36,488 bases of DNA from Candidatus Poseidoniaceae archaeon (GTDB lineage Archaea; Thermoplasmatota; Poseidoniia; Poseidoniales; Poseidoniaceae), in NCBI GenBank assembly GCA_016777125.1, contig JADHSC010000016.1, positions 1 to 36,488 on the forward strand, given 5' to 3'. Both the position numbers and the translations under genes were made by a program. How positions within the stretch are numbered: position 1 is the stretch's first letter; the number at the start of each line of letters is the position of its first letter. Of the stretch, positions 14,950-23,013 are shown piece by piece. Below the pieces are notes generated by a model. The model ran no database searches and was not told where the DNA came from. It saw only the letters and a list, made by a program, of their open reading frames with translations.

Positions 14950-16346
14950 TGTGGGAACAACTCCTCAACGAAGCTGGCCTAACAGACCGTGAAGTGCGCT
15001 CGATCATGGTTCTTGGAAACAATCCAGACATGAGAGCAAGCGAACTTGCAAAAGAACTGCAGACAACTCGTCTCGATGCATACAACAGTCTATCAAGACT
15101 GCAAGAAATGGGAATCGTTACAGCAACCGCTGACAGACCAATGCTCTTCTCGAGTCTGCGTGTCGACGAAGCCCTCCAGCACATTATCGAAATGCGCCGA
15201 AGACAACTTGACAACCTCCAGGAAGGCTTTGACGAAGTTGCAAAGGGCATTACAGAAAACAACGCATCATTCGAGGCAAGCCGTCGTCAAAGAGACGAGC
15301 CAAGATTCGCAGTATTGAAGGAACGAAGTCACATCTACAAGCGTCTTGAAAAGATGGCTGATGAGGCAGAAGAACGCCTCGTTCTCCTCCTAGGACGCTA
15401 CGGAATTCTTCACCTCTGTCGAAGTGAGGCCCTCGACTCAATTAACACAGCTGCTCAGAAGGGTGTTGTCGTGCAAGTCATTGCACAACTCGACCGTCGA
15501 ACAACCCGGTTCTTCGAGAAGTTGCACGATTCAATTGAAATCAAGCATTCAGACGATCTTGACTCTCAAGGTTTCCTCCAAGACTGCACACACGTTGTCC
15601 AATTTTTGAACATTGAAGAAAATCCTGTAGGGCGCGGTAAAGAAGATGCTGCCCTTGTTATCGAAAGCCAACCATTTGCTAAAGCACAAGAAAACCTCAT
15701 CGACACCATTTGGGAAGATGCTGTAAAATTTTCTACTGCAGAAGCACGGTTTACCAAAGGACGAATTCACGATCCTCTACGACTTACTATTGGAGAAGGT
15801 TCTTTCCTAGACTCCTTAGTCGGAGCGCTTGGTGTCAACGACCTTCCAGAACACGATACTCCGTTCGATCCAGAAGCGTTCATGGCTGCTGGAAAGGAAG
15901 TCAACCAGGCTCGGCAAGAACTAACCAAAGGACGTCTTTCAAATCTGAAAATTCTTGGTATCGATCTTTCACGCATGCTTCGACAAGTAGGAAACCGAGT
16001 CGGACACGAACTCGCTTTCTCTCTTCGCTCAATTGAAAACCACGTCGAATTCCTCGATGAAATGATGGATTGGTGGGAATATGCTGGACTAGGCCGTCTA
16101 GAGTACGGAATAGATCCTGTCTTCCATGTACAAGTCGGTCTTGACCATCCCCCGAGTGAAGATCCTGACGTATTGCCGATGTGGGAGCTTGACGATGGAA
16201 TCATCGAAGGCGCACTCATGACCCGTTTCCCGCGTGATGGACAAGTTACAGTACGTCGCTTCGACGGAACTGGTGATTCTGATGACTTGTGGCGATACCA
16301 CATCATCATGAACAATGAAGAAGAACCTGCAGAATCAACAGTGTGA
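14949..16346 (+). CDS. TrmB-like transcriptional regulator
   Basis: The protein of about 465 residues begins with a winged helix-turn-helix like that of the TrmB family (about residues 1-85: LTDREVRSIMVLG, RASELAKELQTTRLDAYNSLSRLQEMGIV). A coiled-coil stretch follows, then a domain reminiscent of the phospholipase-D-like sensor region of archaeal TrmB regulators (about 110-240), then a C-terminal region I do not recognise. TrmB proteins are known as sugar-responsive regulators, but the ligand here is unknown. The ATG at 14949 overlaps the peroxiredoxin stop in TGATG; a TTG directly before it is an alternative. Being encoded inside a ribA-peroxiredoxin unit, it may regulate a redox or light response rather than sugar uptake (inference). 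Confidence 0.75.
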   Translation: MWEQLLNEAGLTDREVRSIMVLGNNPDMRASELAKELQTTRLDAYNSLSRLQEMGIVTATADRPMLFSSLRVDEALQHIIEMRRRQLDNLQEGFDEVAKGITENNASFEASRRQRDEPRFAVLKERSHIYKRLEKMADEAEERLVLLLGRYGILHLCRSEALDSINTAAQKGVVVQVIAQLDRRTTRFFEKLHDSIEIKHSDDLDSQGFLQDCTHVVQFLNIEENPVGRGKEDAALVIESQPFAKAQENLIDTIWEDAVKFSTAEARFTKGRIHDPLRLTIGEGSFLDSLVGALGVNDLPEHDTPFDPEAFMAAGKEVNQARQELTKGRLSNLKILGIDLSRMLRQVGNRVGHELAFSLRSIENHVEFLDEMMDWWEYAGLGRLEYGIDPVFHVQVGLDHPPSEDPDVLPMWELDDGIIEGALMTRFPRDGQVTVRRFDGTGDSDDLWRYHIIMNNEEEPAESTV

Positions 16347-17161
16347 TTGCCTTGAATGTCAACGCTGCCACATGTGTTGTCATCTTTGCATACATCACTC
16401 TTGCATGGCTTCGAACAGTCTCAAGCGGTAAAGTAAGCGTTATGGACGTTTTATGGGGGCTTGGTTTTGTCATTATTGCCTGGTCAAGAGCGTTGCAACT
16501 GAACTCATTCAATGCGATAACTGTACTTACATTAACTGCTGTTAGCCTCTGGGGACTACGATTAGCATTTGTCCTTCATCAACGCACGAAAAATCGTGGT
16601 GAAGATATGCGATATGTTCGCATGATGGAATCCGCAGGGAAAAATTGGTGGTGGATAAGTTTCCTGCAAGTGTTTCTTTTGCAAGGGATCTTACTCGTCC
16701 TCGTTGCGCTCCCAATCTTGTCCCTAATCTCTGAAGGCAACACTGACAGTTCACTGTCAACAAACCAACTTATTGGAACTGCTTTGCTAATCGCAACATA
16801 TTGTATTGGAATGATAATTGAGCATAGAGGGGATATCGAACTTCGAGAATTCAAGAAAACCAGCGGCCCTGGGCAATTGAAAACTGATGGCATTTTCTCA
16901 ATCACTCGCCACCCGAACCATCTGGGAGAAGCCATCATTTGGTGGTCGATTGGTGGCTTCGCTGTTTTAGTCGGAGGCATCTCCTCATCGTGGGCTTTGA
17001 TTGGACCTCTCATTCTCACCCTCCTCTTGCGATTTGTGAGTGGAGTTGCAATGTCTGAAGTCGATTTGAAGGACAGGGACGGATATCAAGAGTGGGTGGA
17101 ATCTACTCCAGCCATGTTCGCTAATCCAATCAAAGTCCTGTTGCGAAAAAACGCCGATTGA
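16343..17161 (+). CDS. DUF1295 membrane protein (steroid 5-alpha-reductase / ICMT-like)
   Basis: This 272-residue polytopic membrane protein belongs to the DUF1295 family, related to 3-oxo-5-alpha-steroid 4-dehydrogenases and isoprenylcysteine methyltransferases. The family's signature is visible near the C-terminus: TDGIFSITRHPNHLGE followed by WW, with several hydrophobic helices before it. The start is a GTG at 16343 that overlaps the previous stop by 4 bases, so it is translationally coupled to the TrmB-like regulator. Neighbouring UbiB-like and carotenoid genes make an isoprenoid or lipid substrate a fair inference, but the reaction is unknown. Confidence 0.8.
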   Translation: MIALNVNAATCVVIFAYITLAWLRTVSSGKVSVMDVLWGLGFVIIAWSRALQLNSFNAITVLTLTAVSLWGLRLAFVLHQRTKNRGEDMRYVRMMESAGKNWWWISFLQVFLLQGILLVLVALPILSLISEGNTDSSLSTNQLIGTALLIATYCIGMIIEHRGDIELREFKKTSGPGQLKTDGIFSITRHPNHLGEAIIWWSIGGFAVLVGGISSSWALIGPLILTLLLRFVSGVAMSEVDLKDRDGYQEWVESTPAMFANPIKVLLRKNAD

Positions 17162-17170
17162 TAAACTAAA

Positions 17171-17175
17171 GGAGG
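17171..17175 (+). promoter_or_regulatory. Shine-Dalgarno site of the ABC1/UbiB gene
   Basis: AAAGGAGGATT contains a full GGAGG, 11 bases before the ATG at 17187. The gap is longer than the 7 bases used by crtB. Confidence 0.5.
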
Positions 17176-17186
17176 ATTTTTTAACT

Positions 17187-18437
17187 ATGCGCCTTGTTAC
17201 TTTTGCACGTTTTATCCGCATGATAACAAAGAAAGGTCCTGCGGATTTAGATAAAATCCAGAATATGGGCTTACTCGCTGTGAAACTCACTCAGATTTTC
17301 GCTCTTCGCCCGGACTTGCTTTCTGAGGAAAAGTGTAAGCAACTCCAATCGTTGTATCAGCGAGCAAATTCAATACCGCGCGAAGACTCAATGAAACTGA
17401 TTCATGAACGAGCGCCTGTTGGTTTTCTCGATGCTTTTTCATCGTTTGATGAGGAACCCTTTGCAGCTGCCAGTATCGGACAGGTCCACAAAGGTGTCCT
17501 CAACGATGGAACAAATGTCGTTGTAAAGATCATCAAAGCGGACTTCGAAAAGTCATTTCGCAAAGACGTTGTTCGAATGAAGCGATGGCTTCGAATGGGT
17601 CTTTTCCTCAATCCCCGATTGAGAAAGGTTGGCAACCCAGTCGGCCTTCTCCAGCACGTTGAGGATTACACATTGAAAGAACTCGATCTTCGAAACGAGA
17701 TTGAAGGGGCTGAACTCTTGCAACGAAAAGCGAAAGAAGTTGAACATCAATTCCCAATGCCGCTCTTGTCGTTCCCTCGCGTTTGGCCTGAACTTTCGAA
17801 TCAACACATCCTCGTGATGGAACACATTGAAGCTCCTACATTAGAAGATAGGCTTGCTGAAGGGACAATGTCTTGGGATAATCTCCTGCAACTTTTCAGA
17901 ATTCACGGAGCGTTCATGTTTGGTATAGGAACCTTCCATGGAGATCTCCATCCAGGCAATGCAATGGTTGATGATAATGGCAGATTCACATTTATTGACA
18001 CGGGTGCAATATCTCACGCACCGGATAAAGTTCGTTCAGCCTTATTTGGATTCTTTTTCCATCTCGCTAAAGGCGAATTGGATCAATCCTTTGAAGCGAT
18101 GCTGTTGATGGCAGACACTCCTCCGAGTGGTGCAGCCAAACAAAAATACATGGAAAGTATGCATGAAATATATACTGGATTTATTGGAAAGACTGTGAGT
18201 GAAATTTCACTCACCCAACAGATGATGAAAACGGTTCGATGTGCAGTCCTTGCTGGATGTCGATTCGGAGAAGAAGCATTTCCAATTATCCGTTCGTTGA
18301 TGTATATGGACGGGATGGTTCTTCGTGGACAACCAAATGTAGACCTGATCACATCAATGGGCCCATATCTCGATGAGTTTGCATCGATTGTTGAATTGCC
18401 TTACTCTGAGAAGTCAAAAAACATCTCAAAGAACTGA
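17187..18437 (+). CDS. ABC1/AarF/UbiB-type atypical protein kinase
   Basis: The 416-residue protein shows the hallmarks of the ABC1/ADCK/UbiB family: the alanine-rich nucleotide loop AAASIGQVHKG (residues 93-103), lysine 114 in VVVKIIK, the catalytic HGDLHPGN (251-258) and a metal-binding DTG in place of DFG around residue 272. The family's N-terminal KxGQ motif appears as KLTQ (33-36), so its glycine is missing. Bacterial members support quinone biosynthesis, and plant members associate with isoprenoid and carotenoid metabolism in plastids. No transmembrane segment is obvious at the C-terminus. It lies 25 bases after the DUF1295 gene, with its own strong ribosome-binding site, and just before the carotenoid genes. 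Confidence 0.85.
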   Translation: MRLVTFARFIRMITKKGPADLDKIQNMGLLAVKLTQIFALRPDLLSEEKCKQLQSLYQRANSIPREDSMKLIHERAPVGFLDAFSSFDEEPFAAASIGQVHKGVLNDGTNVVVKIIKADFEKSFRKDVVRMKRWLRMGLFLNPRLRKVGNPVGLLQHVEDYTLKELDLRNEIEGAELLQRKAKEVEHQFPMPLLSFPRVWPELSNQHILVMEHIEAPTLEDRLAEGTMSWDNLLQLFRIHGAFMFGIGTFHGDLHPGNAMVDDNGRFTFIDTGAISHAPDKVRSALFGFFFHLAKGELDQSFEAMLLMADTPPSGAAKQKYMESMHEIYTGFIGKTVSEISLTQQMMKTVRCAVLAGCRFGEEAFPIIRSLMYMDGMVLRGQPNVDLITSMGPYLDEFASIVELPYSEKSKNISKN

Positions 18438-18497
18438 TAATTCAACCATCTGGGATTGGAATCTAAAACCAACTGTCAAGATGGTTGAAAACGCCGC

Positions 18498-18505
18498 TTT
18501 ATAAG
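18498..18505 (+). promoter_or_regulatory. TATA box of the carotenoid operon
   Basis: TTTATAAG is centred 26 bases before the ATG at 18527. It is the best archaeal TATA box in the window and shares GCTTTATA with the ribA promoter. It implies a leaderless crtI transcript and fixes the crtI start. Confidence 0.7.
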
Positions 18506-18526
18506 CCGAATCCCGGTAGTTGCACT

Positions 18527-20131
18527 ATGTCCAACAGCGATGCTCAACGCGTAATAATTGTCGGCTCAGGCCCCGGCGGTCTCGCCTCTGCTTTGCTACT
18601 CGCTCACTCAGGTGTGGACGTAACCGTCCTCGAAAAAGCAGAAGCTGTCGGCGGACGAACCAGATTGTACAAGAAAGATGGGTTCACCTTCGACCGAGGC
18701 CCAACCTTCTTTCACTATCCAGAAGTTATCGAAGAGATCTTCCAAGCAATTGGTAGAGACGCTCACAAGGAACTCGGCCTGATGCCACTTGACCCAATGT
18801 ACCGCCTGGTGTTTGGAGCAGGTGGTCACATCGATGCCACGAGTAACCTTGATGAAATGACAGAACGTATTCGTGAACTCGCAGGCGACAAGAACGCTAA
18901 CGGTTTCAAGAATTACGTGAAGCAGAATCGCAAGAAGCTCGACTTATCGAAGGAATGCCTTCAGACACCATGGTCGAGCCCATTGGATGTGCTCTCGAAG
19001 CGAGCCTTCCGAGTGGCTGCGGTTCTCAAACCGTGGGCAAGCGTTGCTGGCGATTTAGGAAAGCACTTCGACGATGAGCGCGTTCGATTGGCAATGTCAT
19101 TCCAAACCAAGTACCTCGGCATGAGTCCATTCCATGCACCTTCGCTGTTCACCATCCTCGCTTTCTTAGAATATGAGCACGGGATTTTCCACGCCAAGGG
19201 CGGCCTCGGAAGCATCACAGCTCGAATGGCAGAGATTGCAGAAGAGATGGGGGTTAAAATCCACCTTAACACTCCAGTCAAGTCATTGATCTATGAAGGA
19301 AAAACCGTAACGGGAGTTCGCATCGAAGGCAAAGAAATGCTTGCCGACAAGGTCGTTGTCAATGCAGACTTCGCCCATGCTATGACAACTCTAGTCCCTG
19401 ATGAAAAGCGAAAGAAGTGGTCCAATAAGAAACTCGAGAAGAAGGGATACTCTTGCTCCACATTTATGCTATACCTCGGCGTTGACAAGAAGTACACCCA
19501 CCCACATCATCAGATCTATGCTTCAACATCTTACGAGGAGAACCTGCGAGATATTACGAATCATAAGCTCACATGGGACGATCCGTCTGTCTACGTGCAA
19601 AACGCATCCATCACCGATGACTCACTTGCCCCTGAAGGCCACTCGACCATCTACGTCCTCGTGCCAGTACCCAATCAACATGAGAGCATCGTTTGGGACG
19701 ATATCAAGGCTGACTTCCGTGACACTATCGTGAAGCAGTTGGCAAAACTCGGGTACGATGACATCGCAGACCACATTGTCTCTGAGACTGTGATCACACC
19801 TGATGACTGGGGCGCATCCGACATCTACAGAGGCGCCGTGTTCAACCTAACTCATGACCTCAAGCAAATGCTATGGCGACGTCCTCACAACCGCTTTGAA
19901 GAAGCAAACAACCTCTACATTGTTGGTGGAGGCACACACCCAGGTAGCGGCCTTCCAACCATCTTTGAAAGCGCACGAATCAGCAGCAAGCTCGTTCTCG
20001 CTGATCTCGGCATGAGACCTGACTGGAATGGCGTCGACTCTTGGTTCAAGGACGTGAAGCGCCCCAAAGTCGCTGCTCGACCCCGCAACCCAACTCCAAA
20101 GAAGGAAAGCGTCACTACAACCAAGGCCTGA
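18527..20131 (+). CDS. crtI: Phytoene desaturase / carotenoid FAD-dependent oxidoreductase
   Basis: This 534-residue CrtI-type flavoprotein introduces double bases into, or isomerises, C40 (or C30) carotenoid precursors. The FAD-binding VGSGPGG (residues 12-18) and VLEKAEAVGGRTRLY are at the N-terminus. The C-terminal block LYIVGGGTHPGSGLPTIFESA is the family signature. The last 25 or so residues form a basic, proline-containing tail that most relatives lack. I chose the ATG at 18527 because a TATA box lies 26 bases upstream; the longer TTG start at 18485 would begin upstream of that box. The number of desaturation steps cannot be read. By eye it is richer in G and C at third positions than the following genes. 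Confidence 0.92.
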   Translation: MSNSDAQRVIIVGSGPGGLASALLLAHSGVDVTVLEKAEAVGGRTRLYKKDGFTFDRGPTFFHYPEVIEEIFQAIGRDAHKELGLMPLDPMYRLVFGAGGHIDATSNLDEMTERIRELAGDKNANGFKNYVKQNRKKLDLSKECLQTPWSSPLDVLSKRAFRVAAVLKPWASVAGDLGKHFDDERVRLAMSFQTKYLGMSPFHAPSLFTILAFLEYEHGIFHAKGGLGSITARMAEIAEEMGVKIHLNTPVKSLIYEGKTVTGVRIEGKEMLADKVVVNADFAHAMTTLVPDEKRKKWSNKKLEKKGYSCSTFMLYLGVDKKYTHPHHQIYASTSYEENLRDITNHKLTWDDPSVYVQNASITDDSLAPEGHSTIYVLVPVPNQHESIVWDDIKADFRDTIVKQLAKLGYDDIADHIVSETVITPDDWGASDIYRGAVFNLTHDLKQMLWRRPHNRFEEANNLYIVGGGTHPGSGLPTIFESARISSKLVLADLGMRPDWNGVDSWFKDVKRPKVAARPRNPTPKKESVTTTKA

Positions 20132-20141
20132 GTGATTCAAG

Positions 20142-20708
20142 TTGAGAATCATTGGCGTCCTAGTAGCATTGCTTATGCTATCTGGTTGCATCGATCCTGT
20201 CGTGGAAGAGGGGCGAGTATTTACGCTACAGACACTCGACAGAGCAGAAGATTCTGGAGCAACATACTCCTTGAAAGACAATCTTTCAGAAGGTCCTGTC
20301 CTGATTCTCTTCATCGGTGTAGGATGTATTGGATGTAAAGAGTGGACTGATGAACTACGCTCGAACCATCAAGAATGGATGAATATGGAACCTCCTCTCC
20401 AACTGGTGTCTATTGAACGGTATCCCTCTTTTGAATCCCAAGAAGACGTGGCCCTTGAATTTGGGACTCCAGAAAGCAATCACTACACTCCTTGGCCAAT
20501 AACCTTGCCAACGGATGAAGATCCCATTCGGAAATATGATGATGAGACCAAACTCAGTACTACAGTTTTCGAGTATTACGGAATGCCTGGGACTCCGACA
20601 CTTTTGCTCATTGATGAAGGTGGAGTAACCCAATGGAAAAGCTCCACATATTACCCGGACAATGAAACAATATCCGAAATTGAAGCGCAATACAAGGACA
20701 TGATTTAA
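20142..20708 (+). CDS. Thioredoxin-fold lipoprotein with CxxC
   Basis: The 188-residue protein has a short signal peptide ending in a lipobox (LSGC, Cys16), so it is probably lipid-anchored outside the cell. The mature part resembles thioredoxin/AlpA-Redoxin-like folds: ILFIGVGCIGCKEW with CxxC at 62/65, and YGMPGTPTLLLID carrying the cis-proline loop. It probably exchanges disulfides or reduces oxidised substrates at the membrane surface. The start is a TTG at 20142, 10 bases after the crtI stop, and the gene overlaps the next one by one base. This places a redox protein inside a carotenoid operon. The target is unknown. Confidence 0.75.
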   Translation: MRIIGVLVALLMLSGCIDPVVEEGRVFTLQTLDRAEDSGATYSLKDNLSEGPVLILFIGVGCIGCKEWTDELRSNHQEWMNMEPPLQLVSIERYPSFESQEDVALEFGTPESNHYTPWPITLPTDEDPIRKYDDETKLSTTVFEYYGMPGTPTLLLIDEGGVTQWKSSTYYPDNETISEIEAQYKDMI

Positions 20709-21163
20709 TGGCAGACATACTTTTACTCTCAGCACTCGCTTTAGCCTCAATGTGGGTTGGCCCGTTTTGGCTCCTCATGATGATTCAACCATATGAAGAA
20801 AGAACACAAAAGTGGATGAGTGGGCCATGGTTTGTCCTAGGCCCATTGGTCTCCTATCTGATCATTCTAATGATGAATCTCGGAGCCCTTGCGGACATGA
20901 TGGGAGATGGAACCCTCAGTGGTTTTGTTGAAGCATTAGCAGATATTCTTGGCACTGAAGAAGGAGCCGTTCTTGCATGGACTCACTTTGTCATCGGTGA
21001 CATCATCACTACCCGTTGGATTTGGAAGCGAAGCATAGAGACAGAAATAAACAAAACCGCGACGCAGACGGCGATATTGTTCGGAGTCATGTTGATGCCA
21101 GTCGGCCTTGCCATTCACTTTGTATCCGTGCAACTGAAGAAGGCAACGAACACGCATTCATAA
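20708..21163 (+). CDS. ABA4-like (DUF4281) membrane protein
   Basis: The 151-residue protein has about four hydrophobic helices and the pattern of the ABA4-like family (DUF4281): an early VGPFWLLMM segment and a conserved AWTHFVIGDIITTRWIW stretch with His93, Asp98 and Arg103-Trp104. In plants, ABA4 is required for neoxanthin formation; the bacterial relatives are uncharacterised. Its ATG shares a base with the preceding TAA (20706-20710), so it is translated with the lipoprotein. Its position between crtI and crtB points to a role in carotenoid modification or membrane organisation. The family assignment is by pattern recognition only. Confidence 0.65.
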   Translation: MADILLLSALALASMWVGPFWLLMMIQPYEERTQKWMSGPWFVLGPLVSYLIILMMNLGALADMMGDGTLSGFVEALADILGTEEGAVLAWTHFVIGDIITTRWIWKRSIETEINKTATQTAILFGVMLMPVGLAIHFVSVQLKKATNTHS

Positions 21164-21174
21164 CCAAAAACTGT

Positions 21175-21179
21175 GGAGG
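21175..21179 (+). promoter_or_regulatory. Shine-Dalgarno site that fixes the crtB start
   Basis: GGAGG is placed 7 bases before the ATG at 21187, just after the upstream stop. It excludes the long in-frame extension that begins at 21016 inside the ABA4-like gene. Confidence 0.65.
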
Positions 21180-21186
21180 GAAGAGT

Positions 21187-22179
21187 ATGCAAGGAGAAAT
21201 CACTGTTGAAGAAGCATTTCTTCGATGTGAAGAAATTTGTCGAAATGCATCCTCCACATTCTTTGCCAGTTTCTCAGCACTTCCGATCCAAAAAAGAAAG
21301 GCAGTGCATGCAGTCTACGCATTATGCAGGTACCTTGACGACATAGCAGACGGAGATACTCGCCCGGACGTCAAGGAAACTGAAGCATTAAATCAACTCG
21401 TTATCGAACGAGATACACTGCTTCAATCGATTCACCAATCCAAACCAAACAACTCAGAAGAAGAACACAAATACCGCTTAATGGCCCTTGTCGATGCTAA
21501 AGAACGATTAACACGTTTGTTTAATGGTGATAAAACAGCAACTCAGAACGAACCCATTTTCGTTGCTATGCATCAGGTATTCAATCAATTCCGATTCCGT
21601 CTGGATGATTTTGAAACCATCATTGAAGGGATGGAAGACGATCTCTTTGAAGTCAGACTCAGAACATGGGATGAAGTTCGTTCATACTGTTACAAAGTCG
21701 CTTCTGCTGTTGGCCTCGTATTGATAGAAATCTACGGATGTGAGGATGCTGGAGCACGTATTCATGCTATTGACATGGGCATTCAATTACAGATGATCAA
21801 TATCCTCCGAGACGTTGCTGAGGATTATCGTTCTGGAAGAATATACCTTCCAATTCAAGCATTAGCTGAACACAATATCAATGTAGATGAACTCGGAAAA
21901 ACCGACTTTGGAACCAACAAGCGATGGAAAGCCTTCGTGCAAGAATACATCGAAGTCGTACGAAGACATCAGCAATCTGCGAAACATCTCTTCGAATATC
22001 TTGATTCAAAATCGAGATTGCAACCACAACTCATGTGTGAAGCATACGATGCAATCTTCCATGAAATCGTACGACGATCTGGAGATGTGTTTAGCAGTCG
22101 ACCAAAACTCTCCAAGTGGAGAAAACTGCAATTGGCTGCCAAACTTTCGTTGAGAAGAATTCGCGCCAAATGGTCTTGA
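21187..22179 (+). CDS. crtB: Phytoene/squalene synthase family (CrtB)
   Basis: This 330-residue all-alpha prenyltransferase condenses two prenyl diphosphates head to head, GGPP to phytoene if it is a true CrtB. The two Asp-rich Mg sites are DDIAD (residues 51-55) and NILRDVAEDYRSGR with Asp209 and Asp213, followed by IYLP. The opening SSTFFASFSALP and YALCRYLDDIADG also resemble HpnD-type squalene-pathway enzymes, so a C30 product cannot be excluded. Neighbouring crtI favours carotenoid synthesis. The start at 21187 is supported by a good GGAGG. There is a 23-base gap after the ABA4-like gene. Confidence 0.9.
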   Translation: MQGEITVEEAFLRCEEICRNASSTFFASFSALPIQKRKAVHAVYALCRYLDDIADGDTRPDVKETEALNQLVIERDTLLQSIHQSKPNNSEEEHKYRLMALVDAKERLTRLFNGDKTATQNEPIFVAMHQVFNQFRFRLDDFETIIEGMEDDLFEVRLRTWDEVRSYCYKVASAVGLVLIEIYGCEDAGARIHAIDMGIQLQMINILRDVAEDYRSGRIYLPIQALAEHNINVDELGKTDFGTNKRWKAFVQEYIEVVRRHQQSAKHLFEYLDSKSRLQPQLMCEAYDAIFHEIVRRSGDVFSSRPKLSKWRKLQLAAKLSLRRIRAKWS

Positions 22180-22218
22180 TGCAACAGCATAGAGCACACC
22201 CAATGGATTGAAACACTA

Positions 22219-23013
22219 ATGTCCACTGGCCTGCTCATGGTTGAGGTCTTACCCGTTTCAGTTACGGTTCTCTTGCCCACTCGGAATGAAGAAGAAGCAT
22301 TGGGTGCTACTGTTGATGCCATCCCCCGAGGATGGTGTGAATCACTTGAAATCATGATCGTCGATGGATCATCTACAGATCGTACAAGAGAAATTGCACT
22401 GGAAAAGGATGTCCGCGTCCATCTCGAACCTCGGAAAGGATATGGGCGAGCATATCGCACTGGTTTTGCAGTTGCATCAAATGACATCATCGTTACAATG
22501 GATGCAGATTGCACCTATCCTGCCGAACTTATTCCAGAACTTGTTAAGAAACTCATTGATGATGATTTGAAATTCATCACTTGTGATCGATTGAGCATGG
22601 CAGAATCAGGGTCGATGTCTGGCCTACATGGATTCGGTAACTGGGTTCTTTCATTCACAGCCAGAGTCCTGTTTGGCTATGGAATCAAAGATTCTCAATC
22701 AGGAATGTGGGTTTTCCGCAAGGACATTTTCGAGAATGAAAAGATACGTCCAAGCAACGATGGAATGCCTCTTTCTGAAGAAGTCAAGATCCTTGCAAGA
22801 AGGCACCTAGGAAAGAAAAAAGCAATCGAAATCTCAGTTCCATACAGAGAGCGTGTTGGAGAAGCTGAAATTCATACATGGGGAGATGGTTGGAAGAACC
22901 TACGTTTCCTCTTTGCTAAGCGAATCGGACTAGCACGCACTCGTACCGAATGGGGTCCTCTTGATGACAACCCGGACAGTCTGAACGGCGATTTACCAGA
23001 ACAGAAAAAGTGA
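22219..23013 (+). CDS. Family 2 glycosyltransferase (dolichyl-phosphate sugar synthase-like)
   Basis: The 264-residue cytosolic GT-A enzyme has the N-terminal VTVLLPTRNEEEALG motif, a VDGSSTDRT nucleotide-binding segment and a metal-binding DAD at residues 95-97. Its overall shape is that of dolichyl-phosphate mannose/glucose synthases (KGYGRAYRTGF, DSQSGMWVF). It lacks C-terminal transmembrane helices. It sits 39 bases after crtB as the last gene of the carotenoid unit. It could glycosylate a carotenoid or simply be a polyprenol sugar transferase for surface glycoproteins. I saw no ribosome-binding site or TATA box of its own. Its stop codon abuts the stop of the convergent gene. Confidence 0.82.
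   Translation: MSTGLLMVEVLPVSVTVLLPTRNEEEALGATVDAIPRGWCESLEIMIVDGSSTDRTREIALEKDVRVHLEPRKGYGRAYRTGFAVASNDIIVTMDADCTYPAELIPELVKKLIDDDLKFITCDRLSMAESGSMSGLHGFGNWVLSFTARVLFGYGIKDSQSGMWVFRKDIFENEKIRPSNDGMPLSEEVKILARRHLGKKKAIEISVPYRERVGEAEIHTWGDGWKNLRFLFAKRIGLARTRTEWGPLDDNPDSLNGDLPEQKK

Follow-up and report, generated by a model that had tools for sequence, protein, structure and literature searches.

An ABA4-like membrane protein in the native carotenoid gene cluster of a rhodopsin-bearing archaeal lineage is a candidate carotenoid-modifying or carotenoid-binding protein

A small ABA4-like membrane protein is encoded in a carotenoid gene cluster of a Candidatus Poseidoniaceae archaeon, and the same cluster recurs across many genomes of its class. 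We consider it probable (roughly 0.6) that this protein belongs to the native carotenoid pathway, after CrtB and CrtI, within a package of genes that supports rhodopsin. The best-supported reading of the sequence is the one that an earlier note on this DNA had proposed, namely, a predicted carotenoid-modifying or carotenoid-binding role. The stretch analysed (contig JADHSC010000016.1 of assembly GCA_016777125.1, 36,488 nucleotides) is referred to as the window.

The gene is a complete open reading frame with an ATG start and the sole ABA4-like copy in its genome (Table 1). The PF14108 match covers profile positions 4–127 of 127 and reaches 74.1 bits, with the curated cut-off at 27, so that the assignment to the ABA4/DUF4281 family, previously made from the letters only, is borne out over the full length of the profile. 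The gene lies in a same-strand run (16343–23013) that comprises, in order, genes for a DUF1295 protein, an ABC1/UbiB-like kinase, CrtI, a thioredoxin-like lipoprotein, the ABA4-like protein, a CrtB-like synthase and a GT2 glycosyltransferase. Its start codon (20708–20710) overlaps by one base the TAA stop codon (20706–20708) of the lipoprotein gene, in agreement with the one-base coupling described in the earlier note. The same note had placed the gene between crtI and crtB, which is right as to order, but the lipoprotein gene intervenes and crtI is not the coupled gene; it had also named crtI, ABA4 and crtB correctly as operon members, while missing the thioredoxin-like and ABC1 kinase genes of the recurring cluster as well as the co-occurrence with rhodopsin. 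For the synthase, none of the curated phytoene-synthase equivalog models scored above its cut-off, so that C40 chemistry, as opposed to C30 or squalene, is inferred from the neighboring crtI.

Table 1. Features of the carotenoid gene run in the window (positions are those of the whole stretch)
Feature	Position	Strand	Evidence
DUF1295 membrane protein, first gene of the run	16343–17161	+	PF06966, E = 1e-51; family F31 in 4 loci, kept mainly within the genus
ABC1/UbiB-like kinase, upstream of crtI	17187–18437	+	PF03109, E = 1e-42; found in most sampled crtI-ABA4 loci
crtI-type carotenoid desaturase	18485–20131 (alternative ATG 18527)	+	TIGR02734, 481.8 bits (cut-off 238)
Thioredoxin-like (TlpA/AhpC type) lipoprotein	20142–20708	+	Signal sequence, lipobox Cys, CIGC (CxxC); PF13098/PF00578, E ~ 1e-3, below cut-off
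ABA4-like (PF14108) four-helix-bundle membrane protein, 151 aa	20708–21163	+	PF14108, E = 1.7e-20; AlphaFold2 pLDDT 94.8; clade B by tree
Codons of the conserved core W91-x-H93-x4-D98-x4-R103-W104 (TM3), candidate polar site	20978–21019	+	Alignments
crtB-like squalene/phytoene synthase	21187–22179	+	PF00494, E = 3e-60; best equivalog models below cut-off
GT2 glycosyltransferase (dolichyl-phosphate hexose transferase-like), last gene of the run	22219–23013	+	PF00535, E = 2e-25; NF041391 below cut-off; family F20 in 5 loci, conserved at genus level only

The gene order of the window is not a chance arrangement, because the same neighborhood recurs in many genomes. We surveyed 195 genomes of one class, with two main families, f1 and f2, and a third, f3. 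The class is probably Poseidoniia, to judge by these two families, its rhodopsin content and published accounts of Marine Group II (PMC6461757, PMC6336850). An ABA4-like gene is present in 123 of these genomes, nearly all of them in f1 and f2, and, within the phylum, PF14108 exceeded its cut-off only in this class (184 sampled genomes), with a single sub-cut-off match elsewhere. At least 53 of the 143 ABA4 genes of the class start no more than 3.2 kb from a same-strand crtI and directly behind it, and in the sister family f2 this position directly behind crtI is held by at least 42 of 45, against a chance expectation of ~0.002 per gene. The recurring unit can be written as ABC1 kinase–crtI–(thioredoxin-like)–ABA4, often adjoined by crtB in either orientation. 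The window holds such a native cluster, with a same-strand ABA4 behind crtI accompanied by the ABC1 kinase, crtB and TlpA-like genes; its order at 17187–22179 is matched by loci L032–L035 and, in varied form, by L042–L050, L055, L061, L063 and L066–L071.

The most constant upstream neighbor of the crtI-ABA4 pair is the ABC1/UbiB-like kinase gene (in the window as well as L042–L050, L055, L061, L069 and L071). In plastids, kinases related to it have been connected with the metabolism of carotenoids and quinones.

A phylogenetic tree of 62 ABA4-like sequences from the lineage and 78 others, with no plant sequence included, divides those of the lineage into two clades, each well supported and on a long stem, and a single common clade was not rejected by the AU test (p = 0.41). 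Clade A members are located behind crtI in L055, L061 and L069 (genera g9 and g14), and clade B members in the genus of the window and most of f2 (the window, L032–L035, L042–L050 and others). That two divergent forms occupy the same slot speaks for a functional link with the step catalyzed by CrtI and against one accidental insertion. This arrangement also bears on the alternative that the protein has nothing to do with carotenoids and is a membrane lipid or thiol/redox component that works with the thioredoxin-like lipoprotein and merely rides in the crt operon: hitchhiking would hardly explain why members of both clades hold this one position in the crt cluster. Such a role would fit the thioredoxin-like family F6, which adjoins ABA4 in many loci and stays with it away from crtI in L053 and L057 (genus g3), the MauE/DoxX-like gene behind ABA4 in genus g13, and the bacterial ABA4-like genes that have no crt neighbors. 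Conversely, the TlpA-like gene is absent from many crtI-ABA4 pairs (L042–L044 and L046–L048), and ABA4 is seldom found in genomes that lack crtI (7 of 123). On balance, we regard this alternative as unlikely.

In genus g13, the gene for the MauE/DoxX-like membrane protein comes directly after ABA4 in loci that lack the thioredoxin-like gene (L042, L044 and L047). Elsewhere, the MauE and TlpA-like families are partners.

Genera g2–g5 have their ABA4 genes away from crtI; six of the seven sampled copies lie behind a gene for an MMPL transporter, and two of these MMPL-linked copies keep the thioredoxin-like gene attached. In L052, L053, L054, L057, L058 and L060, a clade A ABA4 follows the large MMPL-family transporter gene, often with overlapping ends. 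It is possible that the MMPL-ABA4 pairing in genera that lack crtI-ABA4 linkage serves the export of pigment or lipid.

The earlier note had made its proposal depend on an association of ABA4 homologs with carotenoid genes in other genomes. Such an association holds in this lineage and fails outside it. A GTDB scan yielded 80 ABA4 loci from Actinomycetota, Chloroflexota, Pseudomonadota, Planctomycetota, Bacteroidota and one haloarchaeon, and crtB or crtI lies within 10 kb of ABA4 in only one of them (L155); plasmid copies have no crt genes among their annotated neighbors. Judged by this context, the ABA4-like family as a whole is not a carotenoid family, its general function need not concern carotenoids, and the name "ABA4-like" alone should not imply such a function in bacteria. 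The link to carotenoids is genuine but specific to one lineage: it is this archaeal lineage that has wired the protein into the carotenoid pathway.

The bacterial and haloarchaeal proteins (Nocardia, Micromonospora, Anaerolineae, Sphingomonadaceae and Halorientalis) have the fold family and the W-x-H-x4-D core in common with the archaeal protein but differ from it in context not only by the scarcity of nearby crt genes but also by a frequent partner. In 41 of the 80 loci, ABA4 adjoins, or is fused to, an unannotated multi-transmembrane protein of ~280 aa, and in Halorientalis the two are fused. The partner carries the motifs RGTTSHFN and GGDLR-x2-HF-x-GLHALQ (L094:7158–8447, L096, L122:10457–11290 and 38 more loci in L097–L171). 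The first member matched no Pfam family, and searches of NCBIfam and the PDB gave no match; one of 32 members touches PF04240 (E = 0.003), and the AlphaFold2 model is confident, with no fold relative. A search of 50 genomes of the class, run without a positive control, did not recover the partner. A Blh-like oxygenase was considered for the partner and dismissed, as neither profile nor fold supports it. The bacterial ABA4-like protein and this partner look like a two-part system.

Within the class, ABA4 is distributed together with both crtI and rhodopsin. Rhodopsin (PF01036) is encoded in 122 of the 195 genomes, including that of the window (G000:C26:408–1088); 104 genomes have both ABA4 and rhodopsin, 19 only ABA4, 18 only rhodopsin and 54 neither. 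The associations persist within genera, with Mantel-Haenszel odds ratios of 11 for ABA4 and rhodopsin (p = 4e-6), 9.7 for ABA4 and crtI (p = 2e-6) and 18 for crtI and rhodopsin (p = 7e-7). Among crtI-positive genomes, the within-genus association of ABA4 with rhodopsin is not significant (odds ratio 2.5, p = 0.39), so that ABA4's own tie to rhodopsin is inseparable from that of crtI, and carotenoids may account for the whole of the link. Judged by their frequency, most discordant genomes in f1 and f2 would probably be explained by incomplete MAGs (mostly 75–95% complete). In f3, five of the six rhodopsin genomes are devoid of ABA4.

Many of these rhodopsin-bearing archaea are without a recognizable route to retinal. 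The β-carotene cleavage enzyme is missing from most MGII (PMC6336850), and a bacterium that lacks blh produces retinal by an unknown route (PMC7734400). In our set, Blh is encoded in 18 of the 195 genomes, that of the window not among them, and RPE65/CCD and the CrtYcd-type cyclase (PF18916) are found in none of the 195, the window's genome included; neither is the C50 pathway enzyme CruF (PF04240). A convincing CrtY is present in only ~19 genomes, encoded by a gene other than ABA4 and almost always adjoining Blh, and not in the genome of the window (best PF05834 match 31 bits, partial). With Blh and RPE65/CCD absent, 107 of the 122 rhodopsin genomes, including the window's, are left without a known retinal synthase, and 91 of the 107 carry ABA4.

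Those 91 genomes, the window's own combination of rhodopsin with the absence of Blh, RPE65/CCD, a CrtYcd-type cyclase and a convincing CrtY, and the published precedents would all be in line with an ABA4-like protein that fills a gap in retinal synthesis, with lycopene end-group cyclization as the most plausible step, in archaea devoid of the known cyclases and Blh. However, ABA4 is retained in 15 of the 18 Blh genomes, nearly all of these with CrtY, whereas five rhodopsin-positive f3 genomes, four of them with crtI, have neither ABA4 nor Blh. Furthermore, the protein has no profile similarity to Blh or lycopene cyclases, and cyclization and cleavage by one small protein are hardly likely. We therefore consider this reading quite improbable. 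Similarly doubtful is the related proposal that the protein performs a required step, end-group cyclization or an equivalent isomerization, of an undescribed route to retinal or an antenna carotenoid in archaea that lack CrtY and Blh; if this were true, acid-base chemistry on carotenoid end groups would be common to plant and archaeal ABA4.

Four f3 genomes (G007, G011, G017 and G019) encode rhodopsin and crtI, yet no ABA4, Blh or RPE65/CCD, and ABA4 cannot explain their retinal gap. The neighborhoods of rhodopsin genes were inspected as a possible site of the missing retinal gene, and no crt, ABA4 or Blh gene was found within ~6 kb (20 loci).

Comparison with known enzymes of the pathway yielded few points of contact. 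Lycopene cyclases (CrtYcd/CarRA, PF18916; CrtY/CrtL, PF05834) would act at the same pathway point if ABA4 were a cyclase, but they do not match it in sequence; cyclase identity by homology was rejected, as neither profile matched and the PxE(E/D)-like string QPYEER in the window is not conserved in relatives. Blh/Brp (PF15461) is an integral membrane protein like ABA4 and its operon neighbor in three genomes, but homology between the two was likewise rejected, given no Pfam match and an hhalign probability of 0.2.

Structure prediction, which the earlier note had suggested as a check on the family, produced a confident model: AlphaFold2 with 44 homologs gave an all-helical bundle (pLDDT 94.8, pTM 0.85) with a membrane topology that fits PF14108. 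Foldseek searches of this model against the PDB and viral models recovered no relatives at E ≤ 0.001, nor did sequence and profile searches of the PDB return a match; thus, solved structures offer no mechanism to borrow. No viral carriers of the ABA4-like protein were confirmed. Across mixed archaeal and bacterial alignments, W91, H93, D98 and P131 are invariant, R103 and W104 are invariant in some alignment sets and nearly so in others, and W21 and G133 are also conserved. In the 44-sequence alignment, the W-x-H-x4-D core is followed by P-x-G, and W91, H93, D98, P131 and G133 are all invariant. Conserved residues such as H93, D98 and R103 would be natural candidates for protonating or holding the end group of a polyene.

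Under the preferred reading of a carotenoid-pathway membrane protein, the ABA4-like protein would bind the hydrophobic product of CrtI within the membrane. It would then either modify the end group of this product, using His93/Asp98/Arg103 for acid-base chemistry, or pass the product on. What results could be an antenna pigment for light harvesting, a pigment with a protective role or a precursor of retinal. A somewhat unlikely alternative is a non-catalytic binder of carotenoid or retinal that stores, transports or delivers pigment, for instance, to rhodopsin or an MMPL exporter. It would suit a small helix bundle with a single conserved polar patch, the MMPL transporters encoded next to ABA4 in some genera and the ABA4-rhodopsin link, but the strictly conserved His, Asp and Arg suggest more than passive binding, and in the 20 loci, rhodopsin is never within ~6 kb of ABA4 or crt genes.

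Plant ABA4 (ABA DEFICIENT 4) was placed in carotenoid metabolism, specifically neoxanthin formation from violaxanthin, by genetics, whereas the archaeal protein is placed there by operon context and co-occurrence. Both belong to PF14108, and their likeness is one at the level of this Pfam family. Several proteins are said to be required for neoxanthin in plants (PMC7004913). The plant analogy is not simply transferable, because the GTDB loci outside this archaeal lineage show, with one exception in 80, no link of ABA4 to carotenoid genes, and we found no support for neoxanthin-type chemistry in the archaeal protein or for epoxy-xanthophylls.

Rhodopsin phototrophy of marine Group II archaea is thought to be important for energy flow in the surface ocean, and in most of their genomes no known enzyme is encoded for the last step to retinal (PMC6336850). 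A light response has been reported for crtD-like transcripts (PMC9723583). A gene named within the native carotenoid operon, and kept or lost with rhodopsin, narrows this broad gap to a small set of genes that can be expressed. The ABA4-like protein is thus a candidate, accessible to experiment, for the part of the retinal pathway that known enzymes do not cover in rhodopsin-bearing relatives.

In G052, the crtI-linked ABA4 gene (G052:C37:5048–5434) contains two in-frame TAG codons, due to either pseudogenization or assembly error, and an intact second copy is present at G052:C29. In addition, ~19 of the 195 genomes contain a second, bacterial-type cassette, in which a divergent crtI faces crtB-crtY-blh (L064, L184, L186–L190, L193 and related genomes) and which looks to have been acquired horizontally on top of the native crtI cluster. 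Three genomes (L184, L064 and L191) have a clade B ABA4 copy behind the blh of this imported cassette, with the full crtB-crtY-blh-ABA4 order in two of them and a break at blh in the third.
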